A stretch of DNA of 6,459 nt from Candidatus Sulfotelmatobacter sp. GTDB lineage: Bacteria > Acidobacteriota > Terriglobia > Terriglobales > SbA1. The notes under the pieces are model-generated. The model had not been told where the DNA came from and made no database searches. It worked only from the letters and a program-made list of their open reading frames with translations. Shown here in pieces: positions 2,217-3,805 of the stretch (position 1 is its first letter; each line of letters begins with the position of its first letter). The stretch spans positions 1 to 6,459 of the forward strand of contig JASLEQ010000701.1 in the NCBI GenBank assembly GCA_030151135.1, read 5' to 3'. A program made the translations under genes and the position numbers.

Positions 2217-3593
2217 ATGCGCTATTTACCTAAATCTCCGGCCGACCGCGAAGCGATGTTGAAAGCCATCGGCTTGCGCTCGGTTGACGACTTGTTTGCG
2301 CCCATCCCGGCGGAGTACCGCCTCAATCGCGATCTCAACATTCCCCGTCAGATGGCGGAATCCGAGATTGTCGATTTCTTCCGCCAGCGCTCGCGCGAGA
2401 ACGGCGACGAATACACCAGTTTCCTCGGCGCCGGAGCCTACTTCCACTATCGCCCGGTCATCATCGACAGCTTGATCTCGCGCGGCGAGTTCCTGACTGC
2501 CTACACGCCGTATCAGGCAGAGATCTCGCAAGGCACGCTGCAATCAATCTTCGAGTTCCAGACGATGATCTGCGAACTTACCGGCATGGAAGTGGCGAAT
2601 GCCTCGATGTATGACGGTTCGACCGGAGCGGCCGAGGCCGTGATGATGGCGGTGCGGCTTACTGGGCGTCGCTCGGTAGTGGTCGCGCGCAACCTGCATC
2701 CGGAATATCGCGAGGTGCTGGCGACCTATGCCACGCATCAAGGCATGCCGCTTTCGATGGTTGGCTTCGGCGAGAACGGACGCATAGATCTCAAAGAACT
2801 TGAACAGTCCGTCAATTCGGATACGGCCGCCGTGCTGATTCAATCGCCGAACTTCTTCGGTACCCTGGAAGATGTCGACGCGATCGCAGAGATTGCTCAC
2901 AAGAATGGCGCGATGCTGGTCGTCTCGATTGCCGAAGCCGTCTCGCTCGGGATTGTGGAGCCGCCGCGGCAAGCCGACATCATAGCAATGGAAGCCCAAT
3001 CCTTTGGCGTGCCCCTCGGCTTTGGAGGCCCTTACTGCGGCGTCATCGCCACTCGCGAAAAATTTGTGCGGCAGATGCCCGGCCGCCTCGTTGGCCAGAC
3101 TGTCGACAAAGACGGCAAGCGCGGGTTTGTCCTCACGCTTGCTACCCGGGAGCAGCACATCCGCCGTGAGAAGGCTACGTCAAACATCTGCACCAATCAG
3201 GCGCTGGTCGCGCTCATGGTCAACATCTTCATGAACGTGTATGGCAAGGTCGGCCTAAAAGAGTTGGCCAAGCAGAATTTGGCGAAGACTGCGTATGCCG
3301 CGAGCCAGTTCGCCAAGCACGGCCAAGTACTGTTCGGAAACTCCCCGCGCTTCAACGAATTTGTCGTCCGGACCAGTGAAGATCCCTACGCTATCAATGG
3401 GCGCCTGCTTGGACACAAGATTGTTGGCGGGCTTCCGCTAAAGAAGTTTTATCCCGAACTCGGGAATGCGGGGCTCTGGTGCTGCACTGAAATGACTACA
3501 CGCAGCGCCATTGATACAGCGGCCGGCCTGATTGCGGAAAGCGAGCGATCCGTGCGATCGGCAAAAGAAGAAGTAGAAGAGGTGGCGCGATGA
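2217..3593 (+). CDS. gcvPA: Glycine dehydrogenase (decarboxylating) subunit 1, P-protein alpha-type subunit
   Basis: 458 residues, close to the usual 440-460 for the N-terminal half of a split P-protein. With GcvPB it forms the heteromeric glycine decarboxylase that releases CO2 from glycine and loads the aminomethyl group on GcvH. Family landmarks are MRYLPKSPADREAML at the very start, YTPYQAEISQGTLQSIFEFQ (97-116), ANASMYDGSTGAAEA (127-141), QSFGVPLGFGGPYCGV (261-276) and REQHIRREKATSNICTNQAL (311-330). The fold is that of PLP-dependent fold-type I enzymes, but this subunit lacks the cofactor lysine, which GcvPB supplies. The ATG at 2217 matches the family N-terminus exactly, yet no Shine-Dalgarno sequence precedes it. 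The stop codon overlaps the next start by 4 nt (ATGA at 3590-3593). The C-terminal tail is charged (KEEVEEVAR) and its codons double as the purine-rich ribosome site for the next gene. Confidence 0.97.
   Translation: MRYLPKSPADREAMLKAIGLRSVDDLFAPIPAEYRLNRDLNIPRQMAESEIVDFFRQRSRENGDEYTSFLGAGAYFHYRPVIIDSLISRGEFLTAYTPYQAEISQGTLQSIFEFQTMICELTGMEVANASMYDGSTGAAEAVMMAVRLTGRRSVVVARNLHPEYREVLATYATHQGMPLSMVGFGENGRIDLKELEQSVNSDTAAVLIQSPNFFGTLEDVDAIAEIAHKNGAMLVVSIAEAVSLGIVEPPRQADIIAMEAQSFGVPLGFGGPYCGVIATREKFVRQMPGRLVGQTVDKDGKRGFVLTLATREQHIRREKATSNICTNQALVALMVNIFMNVYGKVGLKELAKQNLAKTAYAASQFAKHGQVLFGNSPRFNEFVVRTSEDPYAINGRLLGHKIVGGLPLKKFYPELGNAGLWCCTEMTTRSAIDTAAGLIAESERSVRSAKEEVEEVAR
3579..3585 (+). promoter_or_regulatory. 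Ribosome binding site for the zinc-finger microprotein
   Basis: GAGGTGG lies inside the last codons of gcvPA; its GAGG core is 7 nt before the ATG at 3590. Together with the ATGA overlap it supports real, coupled translation of the 71-aa reading frame rather than a chance open frame. Confidence 0.6.
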
Positions 3594-3805
3594 ATCACGC
3601 TGAAACCCTAGCGCTTTGCGCTTTCTGTGATGGTGACGGGAAGTGTTCCGCGTGTGGGGGAACGGGGCAGAATCCTGATGGTAAGGCGCCGGATCCGTAC
3701 TGCCAGCGTTGTGCGGGAAGCGGAACATGCGCGCAATGTCTTGGAAGCGGAAGCACCCACACACCGCAGGGCAACAATTTGCACCAGGAAATCGTTCAAT
3801 TATGA
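3590..3805 (+). CDS. Small four-motif CxxCxGxG (DnaJ-type) zinc-finger protein encoded between gcvPA and gcvPB
   Basis: 71 residues, no signal peptide or membrane segment. It holds four CxxCxGxG motifs: CAFCDGDG (10-17), CSACGGTG (19-26), CQRCAGSG (38-45) and CAQCLGSG (47-54). The eight cysteines would bind two zinc ions, as in the central domain of DnaJ, but there is no J domain or substrate-binding domain. Motifs 1-2 and 3-4 repeat with an exact 28-residue offset, and adjacent motifs are only 9 residues apart, tighter than in DnaJ. The short tail STHTPQGNNLHQEIVQL recalls, from memory, that of Bacillus anti-TRAP. It starts on the gcvPA stop (ATGA) behind a good ribosome site and ends on the gcvPB start (ATGA), so it is probably translated in step with both. 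The function is unknown. By analogy with plant BSD2, a zinc-finger-only DnaJ-like Rubisco chaperone, an assembly role for GcvPA/GcvPB is possible; a regulatory role is the alternative. Confidence 0.88.
   Translation: MNHAETLALCAFCDGDGKCSACGGTGQNPDGKAPDPYCQRCAGSGTCAQCLGSGSTHTPQGNNLHQEIVQL
3786..3790 (+). promoter_or_regulatory. Ribosome binding site for gcvPB
   Basis: AGGAA lies 11 nt before the ATG at 3802, inside the end of the microprotein gene. It supports the ATG at 3802 over the open-frame ATG at 3709, which has no place in the family alignment. Confidence 0.45.

Follow-up and report, generated by a model that had tools for sequence, protein, structure and literature searches.

A gene for a four-motif, zinc-finger-only mini-protein at the gcvPA/gcvPB junction of an acidobacterial glycine cleavage operon, and its possible accessory role

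Main findings

We have analyzed a 6,459-nucleotide stretch of DNA from Candidatus Sulfotelmatobacter sp. (contig JASLEQ010000701.1, positions 1 to 6,459, forward strand; hereafter, the window) that holds a glycine cleavage operon with a split P-protein, in which gcvT, gcvH, gcvPA and gcvPB all score above curated cut-offs. Between the genes for the two P-protein subunits lies a gene for a 71-amino-acid, zinc-finger-only protein (the mini-protein), related copies of which recur at the same junction in other genomes. The mini-protein is an optional add-on in a subset of one acidobacterial family. Our favored reading, held tentatively and at somewhat less than even confidence, is that it is an accessory, DnaJ/BSD2-like protein with four CxxCxGxG motifs that acts on the P-protein subunits. 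Should it act on GcvP, a central metabolic enzyme would have a zinc-finger-only helper specific to that client.

Results

The four motifs begin at residues 10, 19, 38 and 47 (spacing 9/19/9), which bears out the original prediction of four CxxCxGxG motifs in 71 residues, and no J-domain family was matched at E <= 1, as had also been claimed. The further claim that the gene sits exactly between the subunit genes holds at both ends, as the start ATGA (3590-3593) shares bases with the gcvPA stop and the TGA stop shares bases with the gcvPB start (ATGA, 3802-3805). The motif was not found in any other frame of the window, and 300,000 permutations of the mini-protein's residues produced two motifs in 22 cases and three or more in none. 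Across 60 aligned proteins, including that of the window, 12 positions are invariant and six nearly invariant; 15 of these 18 are the C or G of a motif, and the remaining three are N28, H30 and N32. Selection was assessed on eight gcv copies and two others, whose synonymous sites approach saturation. Saturation is lowest in the pair L126/L127, with a dN of 0.16, a dS of 1.07 and a dN/dS of 0.15, and nine further pairs with finite dS (1.3-3) gave less reliable dN/dS values of 0.10-0.30. Divergence is greatest for the window's copy, with a pN of 0.40-0.49 against the nine others. Intact related frames found in further genomes, together with the dN/dS of the least saturated pair, indicate that the frame is a genuine coding gene, and its translation is predicted. 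A chance frame is ruled out by the motif permutations and dN/dS, and an artefact of a single assembly by the related intact copies in other genomes.

Recurrence at the junction emerged from profile searches. Queried with the single sequence, a set of 5.8 billion proteins gave the window's own protein as the sole match, and a scan of genome contigs with the mini-protein sequence confirmed no relative; such misses do not amount to absence, because the family is short and fast-evolving and profile searches later found relatives. A scan with GcvPB gave 80 loci, none of which has a frame with two or more motifs adjoining gcvPB, the two-motif frame of one of these loci (L042) lying kilobases away. 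A GcvPB search of the family of L007 gave a match in 95 of 100 genomes; among the 30 family gcvPB loci returned, two (L101 and L106) had a three-motif spacer, and no motif was present in any of the 38 readable junctions among 40 further ones from the family, the register of L165 being doubtful. When a three-row profile (A2) was run over 398 family genomes, 67 had a match at E <= 0.01. Many of the weak places carry frames of ~400-430 amino acids, and those that were read are DnaJ. Loci were read for 30 of the profile places, and the junction count is hence a lower bound: a related gene, recurrence of which between gcvPA and gcvPB had been proposed as a check on the prediction, stands there in at least 10 of the 398 genomes (L121, the same as L106; L122, the same as L101; L124, L125, L126, L127, L128, L130, L133 and L137). 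A 14-row profile then matched 176 proteins at E <= 0.001, the window's own included; 120 of these were listed, and their sequences read. Among the matches listed, the closer metagenomic relatives of the window's copy are P0041 (54% across the full query) and P0032 (57% across 82% of it), and P0055 is evidently related to the L130 copy and has a full fourth motif. This group of mostly unnamed proteins gains its first concrete context from the gcv-linked mini-protein.

After the fourth motif, 52 of the 120 listed proteins carry a C-terminal tail resembling PPEIxDLGLNKL, a rough count since the simple pattern used missed P0033, P0037 and P0043 and took in P0073 falsely. Among copies read in their genomes, all eight with the tail are at gcv (L101, L124, L125, L126, L127, L128, L133 and L137; in L133 and L137 the match is loose and in a shifted frame), and the tail is found in none of five copies away from gcv. 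It is absent or degenerate in three gcv copies, namely those of the window, L106 and L130. The hypergeometric value for this split, 0.013, ignores relatedness, and the tail had been noticed before counting. The tail is a candidate docking peptide.

Presence of the gene was mapped onto a tree of concatenated GcvPA and GcvPB from 73 loci, with the partial locus L269 left out, two genomes contributing two loci each and an outgroup that is not clean. Eleven loci, including the window, are carriers and 62 are empty. The row nearest to the window, L227, is 94% identical over 953 columns and lacks the gene, so that the window's operon and L227 form one of the close natural pairs in the family in which nearly the same enzyme occurs with and without the mini-protein. 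Most simply, the presence label changes nine times on the tree, and at least five changes are forced by well-supported branches. Presence shows no clear clustering (shuffled mean 10.4 changes; 50 of 500 shuffles as low as the observed nine). Seven of the 45 genomes in the genus of G284 have a profile match at E <= 1e-5, six of them with the gene at gcv; junctions were read in this genus and in its neighbors. Genera of other carriers gave matches in 2/24, 1/1 and 1/8 genomes, all of them copies previously found. Recent exchange of the junction among carriers is unsupported by third-position identity near the junction less that far from it (carrier pairs -0.030, n = 36; mixed pairs -0.019, n = 531; empty pairs 0.009, n = 1711), as compared over 68 loci with enough sequence, nine of the 11 carriers among them. 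Three genomes, G386, G241 and G365, each have two separate gcvPA copies, reflecting either two operons or mixed bins.

These counts bear directly on the strongest form of the earlier proposal, in which the mini-protein is an obligate assembly factor for split GcvPA/GcvPB. The exact position between the subunit genes and the published BSD2 precedent speak for such a factor. The junction is nevertheless empty in 62 of 73 loci, L227 included, and therefore the split P-protein does not generally need the mini-protein. The existence of close relatives whose gcvPA/gcvPB lack the gene contradicts an obligate role, provided that their enzymes are active, and we regard such a role as very improbable. 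What survives of the proposed dedicated assembly or stability factor is a zinc-finger-only DnaJ/BSD2-like protein that recurs at the junction; a general factor for split P-proteins does not. Absence of the frame from close relatives, named beforehand as a result that would count against the prediction, was found in part, in 62 of the 73 loci.

Comparison of the window with empty relatives suggests how the gene may have arrived. ATGAATCAC at 3590 and ATGAAGCAC at 3802 are identical at eight of nine positions, and a BLAST match between the window and L227 stops at 3597 and restarts at 3802, with eight L227 bases used twice. This only suggests an insertion just within the gcvPB start, accompanied by a short duplication, because the overlaps already fix four of these nine positions. 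Two of the listed proteins, judged by protein sequence, would be consistent with a duplication of this kind that ended differently: P0005 starts with MKHP, like the window's gcvPB, and P0090 ends with LEEVAR, nearly like the gcvPA end, VEEVAR. A start/stop overlap was detected by a pattern check in 60 of the 62 empty loci, 32 of them with the sequence GGTGGCGCGATGA, and 52 of the 62 retain GGTG immediately ahead of the overlap. In the window, GAGGTG lies 5 nt before the mini-protein ATG, and gcvPB is left with AGGA at 12 nt and the overlap. The overlaps set the mini-protein gene behind a sequence, resembling a ribosome site, that in the empty relatives stands ahead of gcvPB. In another subclade of the family, the gcvPA-gcvPB spacer of L001 and L189 holds an unrelated 114-amino-acid frame (MDxxAxxGxEL...FVxDFLELxF); the L189 copy matched nothing in Pfam at E <= 0.1. 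This junction may be one at which small genes land.

The same arrangement would suit a translational control element, in which a short, Cys/Gly-rich frame sets or senses the supply of GcvPB and coupling matters more than the protein made. The kept GGTG, its apparent reassignment to the mini-protein in the window and the high cysteine content (8 of 71 residues) are all in its favor. Conservation of motifs and tail at the protein level across the 60 aligned proteins, the dN/dS of 0.15 in one pair and the occurrence of related proteins away from gcv argue against it, and we consider this explanation improbable.

Copies elsewhere in the genome complicate any dedicated role. Five copies of the NxHxxxxxPKC type lie away from gcv: in G204, 51 bp downstream of an aconitase-family gene; in G257, 110 bp upstream of an Fe-S assembly gene; as a second copy in G311, 4 bp downstream of an aldo/keto reductase gene; in G075, where hydrophobic stretches continue in frame after it; and in G031. 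Three of the ten other gcv copies (L130, L133 and L137) appear frameshifted, possibly through assembly error, and a hydrophobic tail of another kind, IQxLFE, closes the proteins of a different subfamily, which means that having a tail does not in itself mark a gcv copy. The expectation of a dedicated gcv factor therefore stands only in part: the tail is restricted to gcv among genome-read copies, while frameshifted and non-gcv copies run counter to it. Likewise, homologues unlinked to gcv, which were to speak against the prediction, do exist in these five copies alongside the repeated junction copies. In a 27-row tree of the module, L106 groups with two non-gcv copies and the window is on a long branch, with bootstrap unsettled, and a single gcv clade was neither supported nor rejected (approximately unbiased test, p 0.204; eight gcv rows against 15 others, 47 usable columns).

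Nearly as likely as the favored helper role is that of a passenger: a housekeeping or general redox zinc mini-protein that came into the gcv operon, makes no contact with GcvP and is kept only because its overlaps permit translation of gcvPB. The neighbors of the non-gcv copies, the frameshifts at gcv, a presence not clearly clustered on the tree and a third-codon-position GC content (GC3) of 0.53 in the mini-protein frame, as opposed to 0.71 in gcvPA and 0.72 in gcvPB, would all be expected of such a gene. It accounts less well for one junction being hit repeatedly in the family, and for a tail confined to gcv among genome-read copies, as a pure passenger would not need a tail of its own.

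Other types of four-motif protein were also encountered. More distant ones occur in the same family (L134, L136, L142 and L145) and in G005, in which a 122-amino-acid frame away from gcv (L081:1462-1830) has two four-motif-like modules in tandem. Of 396 genomes of the phylum, nine gave a match at E <= 1e-5; the loci read there are mostly small frames with four motifs that belong to other types. A four-motif module followed by hydrophobic stretches was seen at L131:1477-1854 and in P0075, P0081, P0084, P0086, P0108, P0110, P0112 and P0116, which are apparently a membrane-anchored form. A second soluble type, subfamily A4, comprises 15 proteins (P0091 to P0120) with GINTQLDSxQPKCPxCxGTGVCATC and tails that include IQxLFE and ITLDLG. 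A search of 397 genomes of the order did not locate A4: the strongest places, eight or so, are copies already known, and the rest mostly have DnaJ-sized frames.

AlphaFold2 models of the mini-protein had a mean predicted local distance difference test (pLDDT) score of 75.6 with 14 sequences and 76.0 with 60 sequences; the core is confident (ten-residue mean pLDDT 74-91 over residues 11-60) and the tail is of low confidence. In fold searches, BSD2, DnaJ zinc domains and anti-TRAP rank highest, with weak matches. The window's mini-protein passed no Pfam or NCBIfam cut-off. Of 14 aligned members, all have weak matches to DUF7895 and the DnaJ central domain, seven match BSD2 and four anti-TRAP.

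Table 1. Annotated features of the window, with the basis for each.
Feature	Position	Strand	Basis or remark
gcvT	487..1635	+	TIGR00528 373.5 bits, cut-off 235.85
gcvH	1683..2072	+	TIGR00527 144.8 bits, cut-off 115.85
gcvPA	2217..3593	+	NF001696 614 bits, cut-off 364
GAGGTG, ribosome-site-like	3579..3584	+	Precedes the mini-protein here; same place precedes gcvPB in empty relatives
Mini-protein gene, 71 aa, ATG start, four motifs, zinc-finger-only	3590..3805	+	Frame, related intact frames and selection test
ATGAATCAC, left copy of 9-bp direct repeat bounding the insert	3590..3598	+	Contains ATGA overlap with gcvPA
CxxCxGxG motif 1, CAFCDGDG	3617..3640	+	Both Cys invariant in 14-row alignment
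CxxCxGxG motif 2, CSACGGTG	3644..3667	+	C and G columns invariant in 14-row alignment
CxxCxGxG motif 3, CQRCAGSG	3701..3724	+	C and G columns invariant in 14-row alignment
CxxCxGxG motif 4, CAQCLGSG	3728..3751	+	C and G columns invariant in 14-row alignment
C-terminal tail, degenerate here; resembles PPEIxDLGLNKL in many relatives	3752..3802	+	Aligned relatives
Weak AGGA, 12 nt ahead of gcvPB ATG	3786..3789	+	Sequence reading
gcvPB, ATG at 3802	3802..5289	+	NF003346 738.1 bits, cut-off 441
ATGAAGCAC, right copy of 9-bp direct repeat	3802..3810	+	Contains ATGA overlap with gcvPB

Outside the operon, positions 27-350 of the window hold a TIGR00730 (LOG-type) frame that matches the model from position 86 on and is probably truncated by the start of the window.

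Discussion

Returning to the favored accessory role, we envisage that the mini-protein folds around two zinc ions bound through its eight cysteines and that it would be made together with GcvPA and GcvPB through coupled translation. It may then serve the P-protein subunits, finished or nascent, as an optional holdase or a helper sensitive to redox state, with docking presumably through the C-terminal tail in most gcv copies. A more specific and rather doubtful version is that a recurrently gained and lost mini-protein acquired, through its docking tail, a specialized and optional role on the split glycine decarboxylase, as a chaperone for this one client or as a redox switch. It would then be a bacterial counterpart of BSD2 for a pyridoxal phosphate (PLP) enzyme, encoded by a tiny cassette that landed in a start/stop overlap and captured its ribosome site. 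If the mini-protein acts on GcvP, the window would also show how a gene of ~210 bp can enter such an overlap while the operon is left unbroken. No description of a gcv-linked zinc mini-protein was found in the open-access literature, subscription papers being mostly outside the search, and the name DUF7895 was not found in the open-access literature searched.

Comparison with known systems

DUF7895 (PF25433) is a weak match to all of the aligned members and a precomputed domain on many relatives, although the window's protein, at 23.9 bits (E 5.7e-5), is below the gathering threshold of 27. The cysteine-rich domain of DnaJ (PF00684) likewise has the CxxCxGxG motif four times; the window's protein differs in lacking a J domain and in scoring 16.7 bits (E 0.009), below the gathering threshold of 32.7, and its motif spacing is tighter than the 17/22/14 that we count in the E. 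coli DnaJ domain from the 1exk alignment.

Anti-TRAP (RtpA) is described (PMC2896485) as a small CxxCxGxG protein that stands alone, requires zinc and has a partner protein to which it binds. It gave the highest VIA Z (3.3-3.4), with DnaJ and BSD2 rows tied within 1, but has two motifs, in contrast to four in the mini-protein, and 53 amino acids; the window's protein reaches 10.1 bits in NCBIfam against a cut-off of 65, and the Pfam match is weak in four of 14 members.

Ruc (Rv0991c), a small, zinc-binding, redox-regulated bacterial chaperone according to its published description (PMC7448276), is an analogue of the proposed action and is set beside the mini-protein by that description only.

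A parallel in architecture is BSD2/ZnJ2 of the chloroplast, a Rubisco-linked protein that is also small, has four CxxCxGxG motifs and lacks a J domain, and which PMC5818400 presents as a zinc-binding chaperone linked to nascent RbcL. BSD2 (6ekc) was the best Foldseek match of the first model (E 2e-3, TM about 0.35), falling to rank sixth (E 0.15) with the deeper-alignment model. BSD2_CRD (PF25436) gave no listed match to the window's protein at E <= 1, HMMER filters dropping most matches above ~0.1, and reaches E <= 0.1 in seven of 14 members. The partner gene differs, and the mini-protein is optional in relatives. BSD2/ZnJ2 and anti-TRAP would serve by analogy as working precedents for a holdase or helper mechanism.
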